From IMG/VR virus record IMGVR_UViG_3300042568_001178, positions 1-22,377 of that record: a stretch of 22,377 bases of DNA; one strand, written 5' to 3'. Shown here one piece after another: positions 1,083-20,378 of the stretch. How positions within the stretch are numbered: the first letter of the stretch is position 1; each line of letters starts with the position of its first letter. The translations under genes and the position numbers were made by a program. The DNA comes from a virus. Under the pieces are notes generated by a model. It worked only from the letters and a program-made list of their open reading frames with translations, was not told where the DNA came from and searched no databases.

Positions 1083-2120
1083 TCAGGCGGTGACGTTGGC
1101 GACGAGGACGCCACTGACCGGCGCGACCAGCTCCGAGGTGGAGTTGTCGATCACGCGGCCCTTGATGCGGCGGTTCTCCGGGTCGTCCCAATTCTCGACG
1201 GTCATGTCCTCGAAGGCGAAGATCTGGGTGGTCGAGAAGCTCGTGCTTCCCTCGACCCCGATCAGGCCACCCGGACGGCTGACGAACACGGCGCTGTTGC
1301 CGTAAACGTAGCCGCTGGTGAGCGACGCGGCGCCCTTCTTCGACGTGACCTTGACCGAGTCGTCGACGACCAGCTGCACACCGAAGAGGTTCGGCGGGAG
1401 GCCGAACTTCGAGAAGGTGTCGGCGCCCTGCAGGAAGGGCAGCGCGGCGGGGTAGTTCTTGACGTAGTCACGAACTTCCGAAGTCTGCGAGAGCAGGTTC
1501 GCCACCGTCGGGCTGATGACCATCATGATGTCCTCGCTGCGAACCGCGCCGGCCGTAGCGAGCGAGATGCGCTGGAGGGCCGTCTGGATGCCCTTCTGGA
1601 TGATGTTGGTCGTGGAGCCGGTCCACGCGGCGCCCGAGATCGCGGTGCCCGTCGCGTAGTAGTTGCCGACGGCGGTGAAGGCCGAGACGGCAGCAGCGTT
1701 GGTCAGCGCGGTGGCCGTCCGCATGGTGCGGGCGGTCATGGCGAGCTGCGCCTTGCTGCGAGCGTGCTGCGCGACGATGTCCCACGCCGCCTGCTTGACG
1801 GTCTCGTTGGGAACGTAGAACGGGAAGGCGCGACGGATGCAGGAGAACGGCACGAAGTCGTGCTGGTTCGTCTTGCCGACCGGAGCATCATTGCCGAGCG
1901 GCCAAACGAACTCGTTCTCGTCGGTGACGCGAACGTTGTCGTTCGGGTCGAGACGGAGGTAGTAGCCGGTCATCTGATTGGCCGGAACGAGCTGCGCGTA
2001 GCGCGTGATGGCGAACGTGTTCACCGCACGGGTGAACTCGACCTGAAGAGCGCCCGTTGCGAGGGCGTTGGTGGACGGGACGTAGGTATTCAGTCCGCCA
2101 CCGACTGCGACGTAACTCAT
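1083..2120 (-). CDS. Major capsid protein
   Basis: This 345-aa protein is the best candidate for the HK97-fold major capsid protein. It lies after the protease-scaffold and decoration genes and before DUF1320. The strongest SD in the head block precedes it (AAAGGAGG, seven bases before ATG 2120), as expected for the most abundant product. Sequence features seen in this class include SCIRRAFPFYVPNETVKQ near residues 94-111, long Ala/Thr-rich helices at about 120-180, an SEDIMMVISPTVANLL segment near 214-229, and a C-terminal ENWDDPENRRIKGRV strand region. Residues 6-15 (VGGGLNTYVP) match a peptide in the protease-scaffold protein almost exactly. The identification rests on position and composition, because capsid sequences diverge strongly. 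Confidence 0.85.
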   Translation of the reverse strand: MSYVAVGGGLNTYVPSTNALATGALQVEFTRAVNTFAITRYAQLVPANQMTGYYLRLDPNDNVRVTDENEFVWPLGNDAPVGKTNQHDFVPFSCIRRAFPFYVPNETVKQAAWDIVAQHARSKAQLAMTARTMRTATALTNAAAVSAFTAVGNYYATGTAISGAAWTGSTTNIIQKGIQTALQRISLATAGAVRSEDIMMVISPTVANLLSQTSEVRDYVKNYPAALPFLQGADTFSKFGLPPNLFGVQLVVDDSVKVTSKKGAASLTSGYVYGNSAVFVSRPGGLIGVEGSTSFSTTQIFAFEDMTVENWDDPENRRIKGRVIDNSTSELVAPVSGVLVANVTA

Positions 2121-2148
2121 GGTGTGACCTCCTTTGGGTCAGATGTGA

Positions 2149-2532
2149 TCAGAGCGCCTTGGTGGCGGGGAGACGGTAGGCCCAGAAGATCTGCCCGGAG
2201 GCAGCGGCTTCGAGAGCGACGAAGAGCGGCACGTTGCCCGAACCGGCAGCGGTGATCGCAACGCCGCCCGTCGAGGCAATCAGGCCGAGACCAGCGGTGA
2301 TGTTGCCGCCGGCCTCGATCTGCACGCAATTCGAGGGCTGCAGGCTGATGGGGTCGCCAGCGGCCGCGTGCACGGACGCGTCGAACCGACGAGTCGAGCC
2401 GTCGGTGACGCCGACCACGTAGTCCGCAGCTGCGGTGGACGCGACGCCGGTGAAGGCGGTCGTGTCCATCTTGACGATGCGGAAGGGGTTGATGTCGCCG
2501 CCGGCGACGAGGTTGGGAGAGAACTGGAGCAT
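2149..2532 (-). CDS. Head decoration-like protein (DUF2190-type)
   Basis: The 127-aa protein is rich in small residues and beta strands and resembles phage capsid decoration or DUF2190-type proteins. It has an N-terminal GGDINPFRIVK strand, an ADYVVGVTDG segment near residues 36-45, and a VQIEAGGNITAGLGL segment near 69-83. The last matches the family habit of a V-x-x-G-G-x-I-x-x-G repeat. It sits between scaffold and capsid genes, as expected for a protein that stabilises the expanded shell. The start ATG 2532 has an AAAGGAA SD. Assignment is by pattern and location only. Confidence 0.65.
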   Translation of the reverse strand: MLQFSPNLVAGGDINPFRIVKMDTTAFTGVASTAAADYVVGVTDGSTRRFDASVHAAAGDPISLQPSNCVQIEAGGNITAGLGLIASTGGVAITAAGSGNVPLFVALEAAASGQIFWAYRLPATKAL

Positions 2533-2554
2533 TTCGAGTGGTTCCTTTCGCGCT

Positions 2555-3163
2555 TCAGCGCTTGTTCATGCGGGCGTTGATCGCCTTGGCAAACTCTTCG
2601 GGCTTGCCGGCGAACTGCTTGACGAGATCGGCCACGTTCCCGACGTCCGCGGAGCGGGGCAGGGAGGCGCGGCTCATGTCGATCTTGGTGCCGATGGGGT
2701 CGCGGGCGAACAGGTCGCGCCACGACTCGATCAGCGAGACGGGATCACGCGAGGCCTGCAGCTGCGCGACGAGGTTGTCGCGCTGGGCCTCGGGAATGCG
2801 GTACCCCTCCTGCTCCATGAGGTCGATCTCGCGGGCGAACTTCTCGCGCTTGATCTCGGCCTCGAGGCGGCCCATGCGGGCCTTCAGGCGGGCGTTCTCG
2901 GCACGGATGCTGTAGGTGCTGCGGGAAGCAATGACCTCCTCGGCCTCCTCTTCCTCGGGCGCCTCGACGTCGTGACTCTCGATGTCGATGTGGACCTGTC
3001 CGTCCTCCTCGGCCATCTCGTCCTTCTCGTCGGCTTCCTCGGCCATCTCGTCCTTGCTGTCGTCGGACTCGGCCTCGCCGAACTTCTTCTTCATCATCGC
3101 GGTGAGGTCGCCGATGGCGTTCTTCATCGCCTCGATTTCCTCGCGGATGTTGTCGGATGCCAT
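2555..3163 (-). CDS. Nested scaffold protein from an internal in-frame start (Mu Z / lambda Nu3-like)
   Basis: An in-frame ATG at 3163 (residue 296 of the protease-scaffold) begins MASDNIREEIEAM and would give a 202-aa free scaffold with the same C-terminus. It is preceded by a near-ideal SD, AAGGAGGAGG, ending five bases before the ATG. These bases also encode Lys-Glu-Glu. The protease gene itself lacks a good SD, so the internal start should be the stronger one. Lambda C/Nu3 and Mu I/Z use the same arrangement to make scaffold in excess over protease. The start falls exactly at the domain boundary. Confidence 0.65.
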   Translation of the reverse strand: MASDNIREEIEAMKNAIGDLTAMMKKKFGEAESDDSKDEMAEEADEKDEMAEEDGQVHIDIESHDVEAPEEEEAEEVIASRSTYSIRAENARLKARMGRLEAEIKREKFAREIDLMEQEGYRIPEAQRDNLVAQLQASRDPVSLIESWRDLFARDPIGTKIDMSRASLPRSADVGNVADLVKQFAGKPEEFAKAINARMNKR

Positions 3164-4048
3164 TGAGGCCTCCTCCTTGGTGCTGGCCGGGACAAAGGTG
3201 TTGAGCCCTCCTCCGACCCCGGCAAGGTCGAAGTTGGACTTTGAGCAGGTGATCTTCTGTCCCTTGCGGGAGAAGTGGGTGTCGGGCAGCGGCCGGCGCG
3301 GGGTCTCTCGACCGAGCAGGGCCACTTCCGAGAGGTGATTCGACTCAGACCAGATCTCGGCCGACCGACGCGGGAACGCGTTGGTGGCGATGAGCTTGTC
3401 GAAGATGTCGCGGTTCACCTCCATGTCGCCGACAATGTATCCGATGCCGTTCCTCTCCTCATAGGAAAGTCGCGGGATTCGGCCGACGGCGCTCTTAGGC
3501 TCCTTGCCGTCCTTCTCGTGCATGATGACGAGCTGGGGGTAGGAGCCGCGCTCCATGTGCTTCCGCGTGCTGGCGACAATCTCCCGAAGGCGCTTGTTGT
3601 CAAAGCGCTTGAGCTCGGGGTCGTTCTCGCCGTCGTCGATGGCCGGGTCGAAGGCCATGAACAGCTCGACGGCTTCGATGGTGACCTTCTCGCCGTCCTC
3701 GTTGACAGCGTGCGATGTCTTGGCGTTCACGTTCTTGTCCTCCTTGCGTTCGAGCTCCTCGACCTTCCGCTTGGCCCACGCCTGTCCGGCGTCGCCGCCC
3801 CAGAGCAGCCAAGCGATGTAGCCGGCGCTGTCCTTACCCCAGCCTTCGCCCTTCTTGTCGACCTCGTGCCGGCTGAAGTACGAATGCATCCGGCGGACGG
3901 TGTCCGGGGACAGGTTCTTCCGGTTCTTGAGATCGCGGGCGCGGGCGACGCCGATCTCGGTGCCGCCGCGGCCGTGCTTCTCCCGCAGCTCGAGGCCGCG
4001 GGTCGCGTTGGACGCCATTTCTACCGTCGGCTTCAGGTCGATGTCCAT
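2555..4048 (-). CDS. Prohead protease fused to scaffold (Mu I/Z-like)
   Basis: This 497-aa protein has three parts. Residues 11-100 form a conserved phage module with GRGGTEIGVARARDLKNR, RMHSYFSRHEVDK and AGYIAWLLWGGDAG. Residues 118-260 look like a Mu I/XkdF-type herpesvirus-fold serine protease: a strand with His177 in the LVIMHE motif, then Ser229 in the PRRSAEIW motif, then LSEVALLG and a Pro-rich end. His177 and Ser229 are the candidate catalytic residues. Residues 296-497 are a helical, acidic scaffold with twin DEMAEE segments (about 333-347) and a basic coiled coil at 382-412. The protein would degrade scaffold and mature the procapsid. The start overlaps the preceding stop (TGATG) and has no clear SD, so translation is probably coupled. 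Between protease and scaffold (278-287) lies VGGGLNTFVP, which is also found near the capsid N-terminus. Confidence 0.8.
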   Translation of the reverse strand: MDIDLKPTVEMASNATRGLELREKHGRGGTEIGVARARDLKNRKNLSPDTVRRMHSYFSRHEVDKKGEGWGKDSAGYIAWLLWGGDAGQAWAKRKVEELERKEDKNVNAKTSHAVNEDGEKVTIEAVELFMAFDPAIDDGENDPELKRFDNKRLREIVASTRKHMERGSYPQLVIMHEKDGKEPKSAVGRIPRLSYEERNGIGYIVGDMEVNRDIFDKLIATNAFPRRSAEIWSESNHLSEVALLGRETPRRPLPDTHFSRKGQKITCSKSNFDLAGVGGGLNTFVPASTKEEASMASDNIREEIEAMKNAIGDLTAMMKKKFGEAESDDSKDEMAEEADEKDEMAEEDGQVHIDIESHDVEAPEEEEAEEVIASRSTYSIRAENARLKARMGRLEAEIKREKFAREIDLMEQEGYRIPEAQRDNLVAQLQASRDPVSLIESWRDLFARDPIGTKIDMSRASLPRSADVGNVADLVKQFAGKPEEFAKAINARMNKR

Positions 4049-7732: not shown

Positions 7733-8815
7733 TCAAGCGTTCACGAAGCCCGGATCGGGCATCAGCCGTTCGTCCAGAACCGTCTGCATCGGCGCGTTGT
7801 GCCGGCGGATCGCCGCGTAGTCGAGCGTGCCATTCGGCCGCGTCCACCCCTCGTCGAGCGCCATCGCCGCCGGCACGGGGATCAGCGTGCAGCGGCAATT
7901 GAAGCCGCAGGGCGGCGCGATGCCCATGCGGTCGAAGTCTGCCATCGTCCCCACGTAGCCGTCGAGCGCCAGATGGGTGGCGCGGGTCCGGGGGTCCTTC
8001 GTCGCCGAGTACTGCACCAGCGGCACGAACGCCTGCACGCGCTCGTCGCGCAGGATCTCGGCGGTGCCCTCGGTGAGCGCCCGGTTCGTGTTGGTCCGCA
8101 GGACGGTCTCCAGCCGGGCCGTCGACAGCTCGGTGCCTGTCAAGACCTGCGCGGTGGTGACGAAGTCGCCGAGGTTCAGCATCCGGATCTTCTTGCCCAC
8201 CACCGACTTGCGGGGCTTCTCCTCGATGACCTGCGCGATGAGCTCTTGCACCTGCCGGGTCTGCTGGGCGTTCATGGCGGTGACGAAGAACGTCCCGTCG
8301 GTGATCCGCTTGACCTGACTGATGGCGCCGTCCGCCGGCCGGGTAACGCCTCGGAGCAGGGCGTCGAGGATCGGCGACCGCTTCCGCATATCCGGGAGGG
8401 CGTTCTGGCGCTCGTGGTCGGTCACGTCGCCGGCGCTGCGGCCGGCGGCCTCGACGAGCAGCTCCCAATCGCCCCGGCTGACGGGCACGCGCCGGCGAAA
8501 CCAATCAGTGATCGGCTTCATCCACTTCGTTCCGAAGCCCTCGAGGGAGAGCGGGACGTCCCGGTCGAACGTCATCGCCTGCCCGTCGGTGATGAGCCCC
8601 TCGAGCTCCTTGACGGGGATCTTTGCCTTCTGGGTGGCGTCCTCGGCCCCGAACAGCCACGAGGCGAACAGGAGGCCCGCCGCGGCCTCGTGGAAGGCCG
8701 CCCACTCGGCGGCGTCGTCCTGCCCTCGGACCTGCGCGGCGACGGCTCGGCGGTACGACTGCTGCGCTTCCCGCAGGACCGTCCGCAGGTGCTTGTCGAG
8801 CTCGGCGCGTGTCAT
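7733..8815 (-). CDS. Mu F-like / SPP1 gp7-like head morphogenesis protein
   Basis: This 360-aa protein carries the C-terminal MuF domain. Residues 228-260 (ELSTARLETVLRTNTNRALTEG) are the helix typical of the family. They are followed by RTRATHLALDG near 277-286 and the cysteine-rich end PPCGFNCRCT at 301-310 (the usual R-x-x-H-x-x-L-D-G and N-C-R-C pattern). Members are minor head proteins bound to the portal, and some are injected with DNA. The start ATG 8815 overlaps the portal stop (ATGA), so the two are translationally coupled. No toxin domain is fused at the C-terminus: the protein ends 50 residues after the Cys motif. Confidence 0.9.
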   Translation of the reverse strand: MTRAELDKHLRTVLREAQQSYRRAVAAQVRGQDDAAEWAAFHEAAAGLLFASWLFGAEDATQKAKIPVKELEGLITDGQAMTFDRDVPLSLEGFGTKWMKPITDWFRRRVPVSRGDWELLVEAAGRSAGDVTDHERQNALPDMRKRSPILDALLRGVTRPADGAISQVKRITDGTFFVTAMNAQQTRQVQELIAQVIEEKPRKSVVGKKIRMLNLGDFVTTAQVLTGTELSTARLETVLRTNTNRALTEGTAEILRDERVQAFVPLVQYSATKDPRTRATHLALDGYVGTMADFDRMGIAPPCGFNCRCTLIPVPAAMALDEGWTRPNGTLDYAAIRRHNAPMQTVLDERLMPDPGFVNA

Positions 8816-10344
8816 CGGCGCTTCTTGCGGACGGCGACCACCTTGGGTGCCTGCGGGGCGGGTTCCTGACCCTCCGGGGCATCATTTCCCATGCCCAAAA
8901 TCTTGGACAGGGGATTGTTGGAGCTTGCAATTGACTGCGCGGCAGTAGTACCGCCAAGGATCGCATCTCCATCGTTCGGCTCGGTCAGACCGAGCAATTC
9001 TCGCACGGAGCGTTCGCTCACACGACCACCGATTGCAATGAAGTCACGGATGGCAGCCATCTGTTCCTTCACATCGGGACGAGAAGGAGCAAACACAAAC
9101 CGGATATCACGGGCCTCCTCCTCGCTGGCGCCGAGCATGCCGGCAATGACGCGCACGAGATCGGTCGTGAGGCTTTCGGCGAGGGCGTCGGCGTGATACC
9201 GAATGACGCGGGAGAGGGTGTCGGCGTGCAGGTCGGCGACGCCGGACCCGAGGCCCGTGCTGCCGGCCTCGCTCGAGAGCGACTGCCCGAGGATCGCCTC
9301 CTTGAGCTTCCCCGACAGCCAATTCACGAGGTCCATGAAGATCGAGGCGCGGCCGGCGTTCGCGTCCTTGATGTCGATGTCGTAGAGGCTCTCGTTCGGT
9401 CCCGTGCGCGGGAGCACGACCGAATTGTCGTTGACGAGGTTCTGCAGGACCGTCAGCATCTCCGACTTGGCGGCGTCGTTGCCGGACGGGTAGTAGCCGA
9501 CGCGGATGCCGAGGGCGTAGCGCTCCGCGTAGGCAGCGGCGTTCTGCAGGATCTCCTGCTTGAGCAGCCAGATGTACCAGCAGACGTCGCGGGCGCCGAC
9601 GCCGCGGTAGATCGCCTCGGAGGTGTTGGGGTCGATGAAGTTGGGCGCGGTCGTGAAGACGCGGTGCAGGACGATGGCGCGGCGCTCGTTCTCGTCGAAC
9701 AGGTGCACCAGCGAATCGAAGCCGAGGTCGGTGACGCTGGGCTCGTTGATGTACGCGCTGCCGACGCGCATGGCGAGGTTGCCGACTTGGTCAAAGGCCA
9801 GCGTGTCCGAGGCGAGGGGCTGCCACTCCTTGATGCGAACGCCGAGCTTCGGGTCGCGCTCGTAGACGATGTTGGCGGCGCTGCAGCCGTACCAGACCGC
9901 CTCGTGCAGCGCCCGGAACAGGTCGCTGCGTCGCGGTGCGTTGTCGATGATCGCGGAGATGCGTTCGGCCAGCGCGACGAGGCGCGGGTTGTCCTCGTCC
10001 TTTGCGAGCACGTTCCACTCGAGGCCGCCGAGCGTGACGAGCAGCGACCGCAGCACGCCTTCGATGTCTGCGTCCGCACGCATCATCGCTTGGTAGTTCG
10101 GGTCGAGCCGGTACGCGAGGCTCGAGTTGCGCAGCATCAGGCTGGCGGTGCGGAAGAACGACCGCTGCACTTCGACGGGCAGCGCGAGGGGGCTGGTGAG
10201 CTTGCGCTCGATGGGCGCCGGGAGCGGCTTCCTCGGCCGGCTCTTGGGCGGGAGGCCGGTTCCGGGCACGGCGTTGGGCATGATGGGATTCTGGCCCTGT
10301 GCCATCAGCGCCTTCGCCTTTCCGGATTGTGCGCGTCGCGTCAT
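8812..10344 (-). CDS. Portal protein (DUF935, Mu gp29-like)
   Basis: The 510-aa protein forms the ring through which DNA enters and leaves the head. It shows the DUF935 pattern: a D-A-D-I-E-G-V-L-R-S-L-L-V-T-L-x-G-L-E-W segment near residues 91-110, an EAVWYGCSAANIVYE strand-helix near 150, and the family-typical GQSLSSEAGSTGLGSGVADLHADTL region near 355-380. A helix with DALAESLTTDLV follows. The first 50 residues are a basic, proline-rich extension and the last 12 residues are basic (VVAVRKKRR). The length is normal for the family. The start ATG 10344 has only a weak SD and lies 19 bases after the large terminase stop. The stop overlaps the MuF start. Confidence 0.92.
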   Translation of the reverse strand: MTRRAQSGKAKALMAQGQNPIMPNAVPGTGLPPKSRPRKPLPAPIERKLTSPLALPVEVQRSFFRTASLMLRNSSLAYRLDPNYQAMMRADADIEGVLRSLLVTLGGLEWNVLAKDEDNPRLVALAERISAIIDNAPRRSDLFRALHEAVWYGCSAANIVYERDPKLGVRIKEWQPLASDTLAFDQVGNLAMRVGSAYINEPSVTDLGFDSLVHLFDENERRAIVLHRVFTTAPNFIDPNTSEAIYRGVGARDVCWYIWLLKQEILQNAAAYAERYALGIRVGYYPSGNDAAKSEMLTVLQNLVNDNSVVLPRTGPNESLYDIDIKDANAGRASIFMDLVNWLSGKLKEAILGQSLSSEAGSTGLGSGVADLHADTLSRVIRYHADALAESLTTDLVRVIAGMLGASEEEARDIRFVFAPSRPDVKEQMAAIRDFIAIGGRVSERSVRELLGLTEPNDGDAILGGTTAAQSIASSNNPLSKILGMGNDAPEGQEPAPQAPKVVAVRKKRR

Positions 10345-10363: not shown

Positions 10364-11887
10364 TCATCCGAACATCCTGCGACGCATCGGACGCGAATCG
10401 AAGATCCGGCCCGGCGAGGCGTTCACGGTGACGGCGCCGCCGGCGGTCATGATCGTGCCCGCCGCAGCTGCCGCGCACAGGTCGACGACGCAGTCGACGG
10501 TGTCATCGTGGGCGCCGGCTGGGAAGGCGAGCATCTCCTCGACGACCACGGCGAAGGCGGGGTCGACCTGCCCGTCGGTCCCCTTGGGCAGTGACAGGCG
10601 GCCCTGCTCGACGAACGGCTGGCTGCCGGCGGCGCGGAGGTGCTTGTCGGCGGTGCGCTCGACGGCGACGAGGGGCTGCCGGCACTCGGACCGGAACTGG
10701 TCGAAGACGCCTTTCTGGGGGCCGTTGGCCTCGGCGAAGACCATCTGGCATCCGCGGCGCTCGACGAGCTCGCGGGCCATGCGCTTGAATTCGGGGAAGC
10801 TCTCGCGGACCCGGAGGATGTCGGTCAGGTAGGCGCGGCGATCATGGTCGATCTCGGCGACGATGCAGACGCTGTAATCGGGGTCGTCGCGCTCTTGGCG
10901 CTTGCGTCCGTAGCCCCAATCGACCGCGGCGATGGTCTTGCTGCCGATGGGGATGTCGCCGCGGCTGTGGTACTGCAGCCATTCGGGGCGGAAGATGAGC
11001 AGGTCGGTCGAGATCGGGACCAGCTCGTAGGCGCGGGCGTAGGCCATCGGGCCCATCTTGCCGCGCCAGTAGGCGAGCACCTCGGGCGTGAAAACCTCGG
11101 GCCACGGGCTCTCGAGGCCGCGGCACGGCCGGCGGTAGAGGGTGCCGTCGGCGGTGCATTCCCGGCGCCAGTCGGCGGTCAGGTCGTCGGTGTGGAAGGG
11201 CGTCGCGGTGCGCCAGAGGCGGCTCTTGTGGGCGGCCGACGGGTCGAGCATCGGCAGCCAGACATTCGCGTAGGCCTCCTTGACCTGCCCGCGCAAGGCG
11301 GGCTGCAGCACGGAGTTACGCAGGTCGCAGATGTCGTCGAACCACTCGATGTCGGCGCGGCCGCCGGTGCGACCGAAGATGCCGGCGCCGTCGACGGTCG
11401 GGTCGCGCTGGGGCGGCATTCCCTTGGCGACGACGCTCCACGCGGTCAGGGTGTTCTCGCCGGGCTTGAGCTCGACGTGGGGGAAGATCAGGCGGAACAG
11501 CGGCAGCTGAACGATGTCGCGCATGAAGCGGGTGCTTCTCGTGGCTTGGTCGTCGTTCTGGCTGATGACCTTGACGCGCAGGTTCGGGCGGTGCCCGATG
11601 AACCACGGCGCGAGGTAGGCGAGGGTGCTGGTCTTGGCATGGCCGCGGGGCAGCTCGGCGTACCACGAGGTGTGCCCGAGGGCGTGCGCCAGCAGGCCGC
11701 GCTGCAGGTCGGAGACGGACCTGCCGAGGCAGAGGGCGATGAAGGCGACCGGGTTCTCGCGGGCGGCGTTGATCGCGTAGGTGCGCTTCGAGCGCCCGAG
11801 GGCGGTCAGATCAACGGGGGCAGGTTCGGGGGCGGGGTGCGCTTCGTCTGCCGGCTCGAGCTGGAGGGCTTCTTCGAGGTCTTGCAC
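10364..11887 (-). CDS. terL: Large terminase (packaging ATPase-nuclease)
   Basis: The product is the packaging motor and headful or end-cutting nuclease. Visible motifs are: an adenine-motif-like AFIALCLGR; a variant Walker A at 81-87 (RGHAKTS); a Walker B-like ADIEWFDD ending at 185; a coupling-type TATPFHTDD near 228-235; and the RNase H-like nuclease with Asp323 (AAVDWGYG), Glu386 (FAEANG) and Asp461/462 (AHDDTVD). The best start is GTG 11887, inside the end of the preceding gene (82-base overlap) with a weak SD. No ATG occurs before the ATPase core. The 507-aa length is normal. The downstream portal and MuF genes confirm the packaging module. Confidence 0.93.
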   Translation of the reverse strand: MQDLEEALQLEPADEAHPAPEPAPVDLTALGRSKRTYAINAARENPVAFIALCLGRSVSDLQRGLLAHALGHTSWYAELPRGHAKTSTLAYLAPWFIGHRPNLRVKVISQNDDQATRSTRFMRDIVQLPLFRLIFPHVELKPGENTLTAWSVVAKGMPPQRDPTVDGAGIFGRTGGRADIEWFDDICDLRNSVLQPALRGQVKEAYANVWLPMLDPSAAHKSRLWRTATPFHTDDLTADWRRECTADGTLYRRPCRGLESPWPEVFTPEVLAYWRGKMGPMAYARAYELVPISTDLLIFRPEWLQYHSRGDIPIGSKTIAAVDWGYGRKRQERDDPDYSVCIVAEIDHDRRAYLTDILRVRESFPEFKRMARELVERRGCQMVFAEANGPQKGVFDQFRSECRQPLVAVERTADKHLRAAGSQPFVEQGRLSLPKGTDGQVDPAFAVVVEEMLAFPAGAHDDTVDCVVDLCAAAAAGTIMTAGGAVTVNASPGRIFDSRPMRRRMFG

Positions 11888-12389: not shown

Positions 12390-13676
12390 TCATGCCGGGT
12401 TGCGGGTCGCCTTCTGTCCGGTGAGGGTTTCCCACCGGCGGACGATGACGTCGACGAACCGGGGGTCGAGCTCCATGCCGTAGGCGGTGCGTCCGAGCTG
12501 CTCGGCGGCCATGAGGGTGGTGCCGCTGCCCATGAACGGGTCGTAGACGGCGGCGTCGCGGGCGCTGCTGTTCTGCATGAGGTAGGCGAAGAGGGCGACG
12601 GGCTTCATGGTCGGATGGTCCTCGCTCTTTGCCGGGCGGTCGAAGTACAGCACGGTGGTCTGCTTGCGGTCGCTGTTCCACAGGTGCGCGGCGCCCTCGG
12701 TCCAGCCGTAGAGGGCGGTCTCGTGCTGGCGCTGGACGGTCTCGGTGAGCTCGGCCGGCTCGGGGGTCTTGGCCCCGTACAGGCAGGGCTCGTGCTGCCA
12801 CTGATAATCCTGCCGGCCCATCACGAGGGCGTTCTTCACCCAGATCAGGCACTGGCGGGTGCGCTGGCCGCAGTCGCGGGCGGCGGCTCGGAAGTTGAAT
12901 CCCTCGCTGTCGGCGTGCCAGATGTACCACGCGGCGCCGGGCTTGAGGGCCTTGAAGGCGGGCGCGAGGGCGTCCTTGAGGAAGGCGCGGAACTTCTCGT
13001 CGGGCATGGAGTCGTTCTTGATCTTCATGCCCGTGCCGCCCTCGTAGTCGACGTTGTACGGGGGGTCGGTGAGCAGGAGGTCCATCTTGGCGCCGGCGAG
13101 GAGGCGGTCGACGTCGGCGGGCTTGGTGCTGTCGCCGCACAGGATGCGGTGCCGGCCGAGGGCCCAGAGGTCGCCGGGCTTGCTGATCGGGTCCTCGGGG
13201 ACCTCGGGCATCTCGTCCTCGGTGACCTTGGGGCTGACGGCGCAGTCGAGCTCGGCGAGGTCCTTGGCGTCGAATCCGGTCGCGGCGAGGAGGTTCTCGT
13301 CCTCGATGGCGATGGCGGCGAGCTGCTCCCGGAGGGCGGCGTCGTCCCATTCGGCGAGCTCGGCGGTGCGGTTGTCGGCGATGGCGAAGGCGGTCGCCTC
13401 GGCGCCGATGAGGTTGGTCCGGACGGCTTTGACGGTCCGCCAGCCGAGGGCCTTGGCGGCGGCGAGGGTGCCGTTGCCGGCGACGACCACGCCGCGGGCG
13501 TCGACGACGATGGGCTTCTGCTGGCCGAACCGGGCGAGGCTGCCCTTGATGGCGTCGAGGTTGCGCTCGGGGTGCCGGCGGACGTTGGCGGGGTCGAAGG
13601 CGAGGGTGTCGACGGCGATGTCCTCGATGGCCATCGTCAGGCCGGCCTCGAGCTCGGCGGCGGGCTTCTTGCTCAC
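12390..13676 (-). CDS. ParB-like domain fused to DNA methyltransferase (beta class, N6-adenine or N4-cytosine)
   Basis: This 428-aa protein modifies DNA bases, probably protecting the phage from restriction. Residues of about 15-110 form a ParB/sulfiredoxin-like domain (IAVDTLAFDPANVRRHPERN, then QKPIVVDARGVVVAGNGTLAAAKALGW). Residues 170-420 form the methyltransferase: CGDST near 180-184, catalytic DPPY at 204-207, HPTMKP at 354-359 and the AdoMet-binding DPFMGSGT at 379-386. The order DPPY before FxGxG is the beta class. The start is GTG 13676, overlapping the stop of the HTH gene (GTGA) with GGGAG seven bases upstream. An internal ATG at 13634 has worse spacing. The frame is open further upstream, but that part is a shadow. 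The target sequence cannot be read from the protein. Confidence 0.9.
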   Translation of the reverse strand: MSKKPAAELEAGLTMAIEDIAVDTLAFDPANVRRHPERNLDAIKGSLARFGQQKPIVVDARGVVVAGNGTLAAAKALGWRTVKAVRTNLIGAEATAFAIADNRTAELAEWDDAALREQLAAIAIEDENLLAATGFDAKDLAELDCAVSPKVTEDEMPEVPEDPISKPGDLWALGRHRILCGDSTKPADVDRLLAGAKMDLLLTDPPYNVDYEGGTGMKIKNDSMPDEKFRAFLKDALAPAFKALKPGAAWYIWHADSEGFNFRAAARDCGQRTRQCLIWVKNALVMGRQDYQWQHEPCLYGAKTPEPAELTETVQRQHETALYGWTEGAAHLWNSDRKQTTVLYFDRPAKSEDHPTMKPVALFAYLMQNSSARDAAVYDPFMGSGTTLMAAEQLGRTAYGMELDPRFVDVIVRRWETLTGQKATRNPA

Positions 13677-13960
13677 TTGGCGGCTCCCTTGGCGCGGGTG
13701 CCGGGCTTGCGCTTGGGGACGAGGACGAGGTCGTAGCCGGCGAGGTCCGCGAATTGGATCGCGGTCTGGAGGGACGGCGCTCGCTGGCCGGTGCTCGTGG
13801 TCGGGTCGGCGAGGAGGCACTCGGCGGTGTGCTGGGTGCAGATGCCCTCCTCGACGGCTCGGCGAACGAAGGCGTATCGGCTCATGCCGTGGTCGGCGAG
13901 GCGGGTGGTGATGGCCCCCTTCCACGCGACGTGGTCTGTCATCGAGATGCGCTTGGTCAT
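13673..13960 (-). CDS. Small helix-turn-helix protein (XRE-like)
   Basis: The 95-aa basic protein has a helical N-terminal core (AWKGAITTRLADHGMSRYAFVRRA, residues 12-35) and then an LQTAIQFADLAGYDLVLVPKRK end. The latter resembles the last helix and strand of many XRE-type regulators. It lies between the replication and methyltransferase genes. Its stop overlaps the methyltransferase GTG, so both are made together, and it may regulate the operon or guide the methylase. ATG 13960 has no SD, unlike nearly all neighbours, and a promoter-like GTGACA-N16-TACCCT (13994-13967) would start RNA at about the ATG, so a leaderless message is possible. Confidence 0.65.
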   Translation of the reverse strand: MTKRISMTDHVAWKGAITTRLADHGMSRYAFVRRAVEEGICTQHTAECLLADPTTSTGQRAPSLQTAIQFADLAGYDLVLVPKRKPGTRAKGAAK

Positions 13961-13990
13961 GATCGTAGGGTACGCGATTTCCGGCGGCTG

Positions 13991-14917
13991 TCACGAGGCG
14001 GTTGCGAATTCCTCGGCGGCGATCCTGCCGCGCCAGACGGCGGCGATGTTTCGGACCGCCTTGTCGGCGAGGTCGTTGCGGAGGGAGACGGTCGGGGAGT
14101 CGCCGCCTTGGGTATGGTCGCGCCACCAGCGCCACCAGAGCTCGTGGGCCTCGTCTGGGTTGAGGCCCTTGGCCTCGACCTTGGCGATGACGGTGGCGCG
14201 TTCGGTGCAGATGCGCTCGGTGGCGTCGGCGACGGCGTCGGCGAGCACTTCCTCGACGGTGACCGGGAATCGGCTTCCGTCGTCGAGCTTGCGGAAGAGG
14301 TCGCCGGCCTCGGCCCGCTCGAGCTTGGTCGCCCACGCCGGCGTCGCCTTGGCGAAGCGCTCGGCCATCGCCCTGTCCGGCTTCCATTCCCTGACTGCCT
14401 TCTTCCCCCCCCCAATGGTGCGGGTCGCGGTCGGGGCTTCCTTGGCGGGGGGTAGGGGGGTGGTATCTCTGGTTGTGGTTGTGGTTGTAGTAGCCATCAA
14501 TTCGCCATTGGCGTTGCCATTGGCAGGGCTATTGGCGTTGCCATTGGCGACCCCATTCCCGCGTCCCCAGCGGGCCTCGGCGCCTCGGCGTCCGTTCTCG
14601 GCGGCGGTGGTGTGTCGCTCCTGCACGCGTGCTCGCTCGCGCTCCATGCGCGGGTTGATGAGGGTGGCCATTGGGGTGGCCATTGGCCCTGCCATTGGCG
14701 TTGCCATCGAGGTGAAGCGGCCTCGGACAGCCTGCCAGTCGGCCTCGGTCATCGGGCAGCGCGTCAGGGCGGCGCAGGCGTCGCGGTCGTCCGGCACGCT
14801 GCCGTTGGTCCATGCGTACATCAGCAGCTGGGTGTAGGCCCATCCCTGTGTCGGCGTCATCGTTGCCGTGCTGACGAGGAAGTCGGTCGGGTACATCGGG
14901 AACCAAGGTGTCGACAT
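13991..14917 (-). CDS. DUF1376 (YdaU-type) phage replication protein
   Basis: The 308-aa protein has the DUF1376 N-terminal domain (residues 4-60: WFPMYPTDFLVSTATM, GWAYTQLLMYAWTNGSVPDD, ALTRCPM), a family linked to phage replication initiation next to O/DnaC-type genes. A basic MERERARVQERHTTAAENG helix (91-109) and GAEARWG follow, then a low-complexity linker (121-150; Asn-Gly-Asn-Ala and Thr repeats), then a helical C-terminal domain (170-308) rich in Trp (WWRWWRDH). ATG 14917 has GGAG eight bases upstream. The frame continues upstream for 79 codons with no protein-like content. Two DNA repeat blocks inside the gene could be the phage origin. It is the first gene of the leftward block. Confidence 0.75.
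   Translation of the reverse strand: MSTPWFPMYPTDFLVSTATMTPTQGWAYTQLLMYAWTNGSVPDDRDACAALTRCPMTEADWQAVRGRFTSMATPMAGPMATPMATLINPRMERERARVQERHTTAAENGRRGAEARWGRGNGVANGNANSPANGNANGELMATTTTTTTRDTTPLPPAKEAPTATRTIGGGKKAVREWKPDRAMAERFAKATPAWATKLERAEAGDLFRKLDDGSRFPVTVEEVLADAVADATERICTERATVIAKVEAKGLNPDEAHELWWRWWRDHTQGGDSPTVSLRNDLADKAVRNIAAVWRGRIAAEEFATAS
14469..14493 (-). repeat. Hexamer repeat coding a Thr tract
   Basis: About four copies of GGTTGT on the plus strand encode the Thr-rich stretch (residues 143-149) of the replication protein. It lies just beyond iteron block 1. It could be slippage-prone, or could be the more easily opened side of an origin. Confidence 0.5.
14504..14551 (-). repeat. 12-bp direct repeats, block 1 (candidate iterons)
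   Basis: There are four head-to-tail units of 12 bases. The plus-strand consensus is GCCATTGGCGTT, with units starting at 14504, 14516, 14528 and 14540, plus a degenerate fifth. In the gene they encode Ala-Asn-Gly-Asn units. The same repeat occurs in block 2 in a different reading frame, so the DNA rather than the peptide seems to be conserved. Confidence 0.75.
14667..14707 (-). repeat. 12-bp direct repeats, block 2 (candidate iterons)
   Basis: Three units start at 14667, 14679 and 14691, plus a partial fourth. The orientation and 12-base period are the same as in block 1. Here they encode Met-Ala-Thr-Pro units. The exact 17-mer GCCATTGGCGTTGCCAT at 14691-14707 is identical to 14504-14520 but is shifted by one reading frame (187 bases apart). 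Confidence 0.75.
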
Positions 14918-19315: not shown

Positions 19316-19370
19316 CGTGGGGGTGGTGGCAATCGTTGCCGCCGATCTCGCCATTGACGGAGTAGGACCC

Positions 19371-20378
19371 GTGGAAATCACCTCTATCGCTCGGTATGAC
19401 CAGTCGAAGATCGACTTGGTCGCTCGCACCATCTGCAAAGGCGCCTCGAACGACGAGCTGTCGTTGTTCATCGCCATCTGCGAACGCACGGGCCTCGACC
19501 CGTTCGCTCGGCAGATCTACTCCATCGAGCGCTGGGACTCGCAGCTCGGCCGGAAGGTCCGGCAGACGCAGGTCTCCATCGACGGCGCTCGACTGACCGC
19601 GCAGCGGTCCGGTGAGTACGCGGGGCAGGACGGACCGTACTGGTGCGGTCCCGACGGCGTCTGGCGCGACGTGTGGACCGAGGATTCGCTTCCGTTCGCC
19701 GCGAAGGTCGGCGTGCTGCGTCGCGGCTTCGCGCAGCCGTTGTACGCGGTCGCCGTGTTCTCGGAGTACCAGCAGACGACCAAGGACGGCAAGCTCACGC
19801 GGATGTGGTCGCAGATGCCGACGCTGATGATCGGCAAGTGTGCCGAAGCTCTGGCGTTGCGAAAGGCCTTCCCGGCCGAGCTCTCGGGTCTGTACACCGC
19901 GGAGGAGATGGGGCAGGCGGACGCCGGCGAGGCGCCCGTCCCGGTCCCGGTCGCCGTCCCTCGGGAGATGGCGGCCGCGGCGCTGCCCGCCCCGGCGCCG
20001 GCGGTCCTCGAGGCCGAGGTGGTGGCGTCGAGCTCGGTGGAGTCGGCCCTGCAGGCGTCGTCGGCCAAGCCTCGCAAGGGCAAGGCGCCGGCCAAGGCCA
20101 GCGAGGGGCACCTGCGCAAGTGGCCGGAGACCGGGACCGACGTCGTCGTCGCCGAGAAGGTGGTCGACCGCGGGAACAGCATCTCGGCGGTCCTGTGCTC
20201 GCACGCGACCGACGGCCGGCAGTGGGTGTCGGTCGGGCCGGACCTGATCGCCTCGGTGAAGCTCGACGTCCCGCTGGAGATGGATTGGCAGTGGGACAAG
20301 GCGGGCTTCTTCCGCGCCACCCGCATCAAGCCCGCCCCGGCGCCGGCGGCGGTCGCCGACGACGAGGTTCCGTTCTGA
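19371..20378 (+). CDS. RecT/Bet-family single-strand annealing protein with SSB-like tail
   Basis: The core (residues of about 5-190) shows the Bet/RecT pattern: LSLFIAICERTGLDPFARQIY, VRQTQVSIDGARLTAQRSGEYAGQDGPYW, FAAKVGVLRRGF, LTRMWSQMPTLMIGKCAEALALRKAFP. It anneals single strands in recombination. Beyond about residue 195 comes a Pro/Val/Ala linker, then a basic patch (KPRKGKAPAKA) and a beta-type domain (about 245-320), ending in ADDEVPF. The last six residues, DDEVPF, resemble the DDDIPF tip of SSB, which recruits partners. I chose GTG 19371 because an AGGA lies upstream and the frame before it lies at the predicted RNA start. It probably works with RusA and Gp157. Confidence 0.85.
   Translation: MEITSIARYDQSKIDLVARTICKGASNDELSLFIAICERTGLDPFARQIYSIERWDSQLGRKVRQTQVSIDGARLTAQRSGEYAGQDGPYWCGPDGVWRDVWTEDSLPFAAKVGVLRRGFAQPLYAVAVFSEYQQTTKDGKLTRMWSQMPTLMIGKCAEALALRKAFPAELSGLYTAEEMGQADAGEAPVPVPVAVPREMAAAALPAPAPAVLEAEVVASSSVESALQASSAKPRKGKAPAKASEGHLRKWPETGTDVVVAEKVVDRGNSISAVLCSHATDGRQWVSVGPDLIASVKLDVPLEMDWQWDKAGFFRATRIKPAPAPAAVADDEVPF

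Follow-up and report, generated by a model that had tools for sequence, protein, structure and literature searches.

The DNA analysed here, referred to as the window, is a stretch of 22,377 bases from a virus (IMG/VR record IMGVR_UViG_3300042568_001178) that carries a head module with genes for a terminase, a Mu-type portal and further head proteins (Table 1). Two of these genes are at the centre of this report, P0001, encoding a fusion of a putative protease with a scaffold, and P0002, encoding the major capsid protein. Both products contain the same short peptide, once at the junction between the protease and scaffold parts of P0001 (the junction copy) and once in the N-terminal arm of the capsid protein (the capsid copy). 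Across dozens of lineages of related phages the sequence of this peptide drifts, and its two copies change together. This joint change suggests that shell assembly or maturation includes a step that has not been described before.

Table 1. Head genes, peptide copies and predicted translation features of the window
Feature	Position	Strand	Description
Terminase gene	10364-11887	minus	head module
Mu-type portal gene	8812-10344	minus	head module
Mu F-like minor head protein gene	7733-8815	minus	head module
Protease-scaffold gene P0001	2555-4048	minus	497 amino acids; open reading frame (ORF), relatives, structural model
Junction copy VGGGLNTFVP	3188-3217	minus	protease-scaffold residues 278-287
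Shine-Dalgarno-like AAGGAGGAGG	3172-3181	minus	five bases upstream of the internal ATG at 3166
Predicted scaffold-alone product	2555-3166	minus	internal ATG, Met295; without the peptide
Cement/decoration protein gene	2149-2532	minus	between protease-scaffold and capsid genes; Pfam and PHROG matches
Major capsid protein gene P0002	1083-2120	minus	345 amino acids; HK97 fold (Foldseek, phrog_29)
Capsid copy VGGGLNTYVP	2076-2105	minus	capsid residues 6-15, N-terminal arm
Mu gp36-like gene	519-1013	minus	head module

The sequence-only reading of the window had described a decapeptide common to the two proteins, located between protease and scaffold domains in one and at the N-terminus of the other. 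This description holds: nine of the ten residues and 23 of the 30 bases are identical, the flanks resemble each other in part as had been stated, the junction copy lies in a linker between the protease-type domain and a putative internal scaffold start, and the capsid copy lies in the N-terminal arm. A six-frame scan of the whole window with a relaxed pattern found no copy beyond these two, and when both proteins were shuffled 2000 times, a best 10-mer with at least nine identities between them arose once. The function proposed at that stage, protease recognition or docking, fits the co-variation and the architecture described below, and the evidence does not separate cleavage from docking.

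In close relatives the pair is stably maintained. Each of the 134 records containing both genes (133 loci plus the window, from the first two sets of relatives) retains the two copies; in L017 and L091, which belong to one contig, the capsid copy reads CGGLNT. When IMG/VR was scanned blind for every piece of DNA that codes for GGGLNT[F/Y][V/I/M]P, at least 120 stretches were returned, and 59 of 80 among the matches listed showed two matches on one strand, typically 1.1-1.2 kb apart. All blind-scan matches examined in loci L199-L263 fall inside the protease-scaffold or the capsid gene, down to 42% protein identity. The permitted variation was derived from 96 distinct peptide pairs representing 342 loci: residues 3 (G) and 10 (P) are invariant in both copies, the sixth residue is N, S or D, the eighth F or Y, and the ninth V or I. 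Single positions are not locked between the copies, as F/Y and V/I differ freely, and the pair of group 3 is mismatched in part (PGVGNVFVP versus GGGLNTFVP).

Distant relatives, with capsids about 35-60% identical to the queries, were collected in two further scans. A profile scan of genome contigs with the protease alignment yielded four loci, one of which (L394) opened a distant group, and the corresponding scan with the capsid alignment gave no matches. In distant lineages the motif takes other forms and does so in parallel in its two copies, with rare states recurring in both. Given as capsid then junction copy, the pairs are PSPTNVAVPD and PAPGNVAVPE in L398, YPGPFSVHVP and FEGPGNVHIP in L521, PSQYNTYLPS and PSGTNTFLPS in L514, LPGGSNTYVR and LPGGGNTYIR in L480, VPESSNTFVP and SPESGNTFVP in L507, AVGQSNTFIP and AVGASNTFIP in L399, NVFVPSHE and NVFVPDHE in L403, and, for the common half in L395, ITPQYPSGYN and IAPQAPGAYN.

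For a quantitative comparison, each capsid N-terminus was scored against its own and every other lineage's protease-scaffold, the score being that of the best BLOSUM62 match over 10 residues. If the two peptides evolved independently, own pairs would be no younger than foreign ones, and an excess of the own-pair score is therefore not expected. In the first set of 20 lineages the own-pair score was reached in none of 20,000 shuffles. A prediction fixed in advance was then confronted with new lineages, 12 of 13 of which scored above their cross mean (again 0 of 20,000 shuffles); this set comprises the 42 of 78 loci that could be parsed, with 36 dropped (six without a protease match, 30 because of pattern failure or a short junction). 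A laxer pattern retained 67 of the 78 loci in 20 lineages, 16 of them above the cross mean (0 of 20,000), with at least four misanchored (L480, L490, L507 and L508). With one rule applied throughout, searching 260 protease-scaffold residues from before the Ser motif, 112 of 120 loci were usable; L403 and L513 (frame-shifted short ORF) and six loci without a protease ORF were dropped. For the resulting 38 lineages the own-pair sum is 1324, against 972.7 +/- 36.0 with a maximum of 1169 in shuffles (0 of 50,000), and the own pair exceeds the cross mean in 33, the exceptions being L299, L396, L404, L467 and L473. Control comparisons with seven further segments of the capsid protein and with the C-terminal 150 amino acids of the protease-scaffold gave z values from -1.9 to 1.4, compared with 9.8 for the peptide.

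The signal persists (0 of 20,000 shuffles in each case) when the GGG-type lineages are removed, leaving 33, or when only 28 or 15 more distantly related lineages are retained; the strictest thinning, to only four lineages, gives 826 of 20,000, and the six GGG-type lineages alone carry a weak signal (1079-1279 of 20,000 shuffles). Independent variation of the two peptides in relatives, the outcome named in the sequence-only reading as speaking against a shared role, is thus rejected by the co-variation across 38 lineages. The co-varying block spans positions -7 to +4 around a core N, i.e. 12 residues corresponding to capsid residues 4-15 of the window, as determined in 37 lineages including one out of register (L399). 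The core N itself contributes little co-variation since it is largely invariant. The block ends sharply: co-variation is absent from +5 to +8, although the capsid is still conserved there.

The architecture of P0001 comprises an N-terminal domain (residues 1-108), a protease-type domain (about 109-270), the linker with the peptide, and the scaffold. A structural model of residues 109-310 is of moderate quality, with a predicted local distance difference test (pLDDT) of 63 and a predicted template modelling score (pTM) of 0.65, and the junction peptide lies in its disordered tail (pLDDT about 30-40). In VIA-align this model ranked T4 gp21 first (Z 8.3, root-mean-square deviation 3.2 across 120 residues); the top 20 of the 50 rows listed are all T4 gp21 or herpes assemblins, the latter with Z up to 7.4, and these values come from a model of the stated pLDDT and, except for two chains, lie below Z 8. 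A search of BFVD retrieved phage maturation proteases, among them the capsid maturation protease of Gordonia phage Jumbo (E 1.6e-6). The PDB alone yielded no Foldseek match at E<=0.001, Pfam, PHROG and PDB-sequence searches with the protease part gave no convincing or useful match, and hhalign detected no significant similarity of the protease to Mu I or JBD30 gp37. On the strength of the model, P0001 resembles proteases of the T4 gp21/assemblin type. H177 and S229 (H69 and S121 in fragment numbering), invariant in 38 sequences and in 17 more divergent ones, are the catalytic candidates.

The scaffold is probably also produced alone, without the peptide, because a Shine-Dalgarno-like core precedes the ATG that follows the junction. 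In 19 of 37 lineages the first ATG downstream of the junction peptide has such a core in front of it, compared with 66 of 341 later in-frame ATGs (Fisher p 4.6e-5), and Shine-Dalgarno-like runs are kept in relatives upstream of the internal start. For the capsid protein, Foldseek found 3bjq (E 6.7e-12) and many phage capsids, phrog_29 matched with E 2e-4, a PDB sequence search gave nothing useful, and the model adopts an HK97 fold (pTM 0.73). Residues 1-34 have a pLDDT below 50 in the monomer model, as expected for an N-terminal arm. The N-terminal delta (scaffold) domain of HK97-type capsids, about 100 residues long, is absent; ahead of the fold there is only this low-confidence arm of 34 residues. 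Models and sequence statistics thus support the protease-type and HK97-type folds and the internal start.

Several well-studied systems share parts of this arrangement. Phage Mu (genes I, Z and T) has in common with the window the type of portal, relatives of F and gp36, and a protease-scaffold with an in-frame internal start, which is predicted for P0001 and on record for Mu, Z being encoded beside I. Unlike the window, Mu has no peptide common to I and T, and T starts at its encoded start, as confirmed by sequencing (record note). In herpesviruses, UL26.5 is made beside UL26, and a release site is described between the protease and the internal scaffold start, the position that the junction copy takes in P0001; the second site is located near the scaffold C-terminus, whereas in the window the second copy is on the capsid protein (PMC4498786). 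The predicted protease fold is the feature likened to both T4 gp21 and the herpes assemblins. The P2 protein gpO is a protease-scaffold fusion that cuts itself and removes 31 residues from the N-terminus of the capsid protein gpN (PMC7552001), and it can be likened to P0001 as a fusion for which corresponding cuts are predicted; it differs in that gpO and gpN have no detectable common peptide. In phage 80alpha, as in the window, capsid protein (CP) and scaffold protein (SP) share a short N-terminal sequence, at which the host protease Prp cuts to remove 13-14 residues (PMC5744158). There the protease belongs to the host, the scaffold is separate and the motif is at its N-terminus, whereas the window encodes a fusion with an internal motif. 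No peptide match of the own-pair type was detected in Mu, JBD30 or P2; HK97, searched over 130 residues, scored 30 with a shuffle maximum of 34.

How head proteases reach the right bonds in the procapsid, and how they are timed on them, is only partly understood. The tentatively preferred explanation of the twin peptide is a recognition element through which the head protease encoded by the phage itself would read two of its substrates. It is ranked first by analogy, because the junction copy takes the position of an assemblin-type release site, the capsid copy lies at a capsid N-terminus, the place cut by gpO in P2, and 80alpha offers a precedent. P0001 would be made as a protease-linker-scaffold chain, with scaffold alone additionally arising from the internal start. 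Inside the procapsid the protease would free itself from the scaffold at the linker copy, comparable to the UL26 release site, and at the capsid copy it would shorten the N-terminal arm by about 11-15 residues, so that maturation could proceed. Candidate bonds are N11|T12 or, by analogy with the common N-terminal sequence at the 80alpha cut, P15|S16. A trimmed capsid protein would have TYVPSTNALATGALQVEFTR or STNALATGALQVEFTR as its N-terminus, an untrimmed one SYVAVGGGLNTYVPSTNALATGALQVEFTR. We infer that cutting occurs, at both sites and by the P0001 protease. In an exploratory partial Mantel analysis, which left out L404 (no junction copy) as well as L399 and L473 (wrong register), the capsid peptide followed the protease when the capsid body was allowed for (r 0.286, 0 of 2000).

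A number of points weigh against cleavage. Pro, which would be an unusual P1 residue, is the commonest residue at +4. The junction peptide follows the capsid body in the same Mantel analysis (r 0.259, 1 of 2000) and not the protease (r -0.059). No further peptide copy is present in the scaffold part in the lineages scanned, and L404-L423, L427, L428, L459 and relatives keep the capsid motif and the protease and have no junction copy. P2 cuts at both places without a detectable common peptide, and a co-varying block of 12 residues is long for a head protease, in contrast to the A-X-E read by gp245 of SPN3US (PMC10052503).

A possible alternative, nearly as likely as the recognition element, is that the peptide serves docking by mimicry. 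The capsid arm would bind a groove on the neighbouring capsid subunit, the linker copy would dock the protease on the shell through that groove, and cleavage or expansion would then hand the groove to the capsid's own arm; since only the protease-bearing form carries the copy, docking would set where and how many proteases enter. The shared block suits a binding peptide: it forms the extreme N-terminus of the capsid protein, spans 12 residues and breaks off abruptly at +4. The exploratory link of the junction peptide to the capsid body, with the protease allowed for, and the persistence of the capsid copy in the L404 lineage point in the same direction. In JBD30 the N-terminal arm extends to the adjacent capsomer and changes its fold during maturation (PMC11445458), and residues 1-14 of gpN are ordered on the inside of P2 procapsids, at the trimer interfaces; the authors of that work weighed a gpO origin for these residues and report that a similar motif was not found in gpO (PMC7552001). 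Docking accords less well with a predicted free scaffold that lacks the peptide, with the position of the junction copy at an assemblin-type release site, and with the disorder of the peptide in both monomer models.

Both ideas may be combined, which seems less likely than not: the peptide would be a two-copy address tag by which the protease-scaffold mimics the capsid arm, docks in the arm's groove and is cut free, the real arm taking its place. Mimicry, docking and cleavage would then form one hand-off that times head maturation, the tag drifting by lineage while its copies stay matched. The crosswise Mantel result would suit such a hand-off, yet it is too weak to rely on and leaves cleavage versus docking undecided. 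The L404 lineage, with a short linker and capsid motifs such as FPSGTNTYIP, offers a natural test case for either mechanism.

It is improbable that both peptides bind a third partner co-evolving with the phage, e.g. a host chaperone or portal factor. For the N-terminal sequence shared by the two 80alpha proteins, the authors of that study suggest a chaperone used by both, or a role in regulation (PMC5744158); in the phages described here no candidate partner is apparent, and each scanned lineage having the pair contains only two copies. Recent duplication, gene conversion or a nucleic-acid signal can practically be dismissed: despite the 23 identical bases, one copy lies just after a start codon and the other before one, and DNA identity of the copies within a genome (0.786) equals that between genomes (0.781), with third positions at 45% in both comparisons, so that selection acts on the protein. 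The twin peptide is not a product of chance, recent duplication or a DNA signal.

Phages with the twin peptide form a large, widespread group of uncultured tailed phages. Six capsids and four protease-scaffolds were compared by tblastn with 50,697 GenBank phage records; none of the capsids and only one of the protease-scaffolds had a relative there, and matches of this one, P0001, are confined to its first 132 residues (best 60 of 90 records). Each ingredient is known already; the open-access literature searched yielded no description of a phage-encoded peptide pair whose copies keep matching each other as they drift over dozens of lineages. In phages that have no known relatives, the peptide pair can serve to recognise the capsid, protease and scaffold, and as dozens of natural matched pairs are available, the partner surface can be sought by co-evolution.

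Some observations concern details of individual proteins. Residues 1-108 of P0001 (window positions 3725-4048) form a separate domain before the protease that matches phrog_2859 (function unknown; E 5.4e-17). A domain of this type also occurs in many Vibrio phages and, under capsid- or portal-annotated features, in phages of Roseobacter; some relatives, with a match beginning at residue 106-112, seem to lack it. In the protease-scaffolds of L395-L424, [E/R][K/R]Y[S/T/A] recurs directly upstream of the junction peptide, and motifs resembling KYE/QYE follow the peptide; these elements may represent the last protease strand or further sites. A third peptide copy was found nowhere in the 13 lineages scanned. 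The protease-scaffolds of L425 and L426 contain GAPGGGNTFPPG as their only motif-like copy, displaced into the scaffold part and away from the junction. In L403 (positions 3100-3700) the protease ORF changes frame just upstream of the junction and the peptide is in another frame, by sequencing error or a programmed shift. The product of the gene between P0001 and P0002 matched Phage_cement_2 (Pfam, E 7.4e-4, below the curated cut-off) and phrog_673 (E 7.2e-12). Elsewhere in the window, the ORF at 19317-20378 presumably resembles a RecT-type annealing protein, and that at 12390-14387 is taken to resemble a fusion of the ParB/DNA methylase type.

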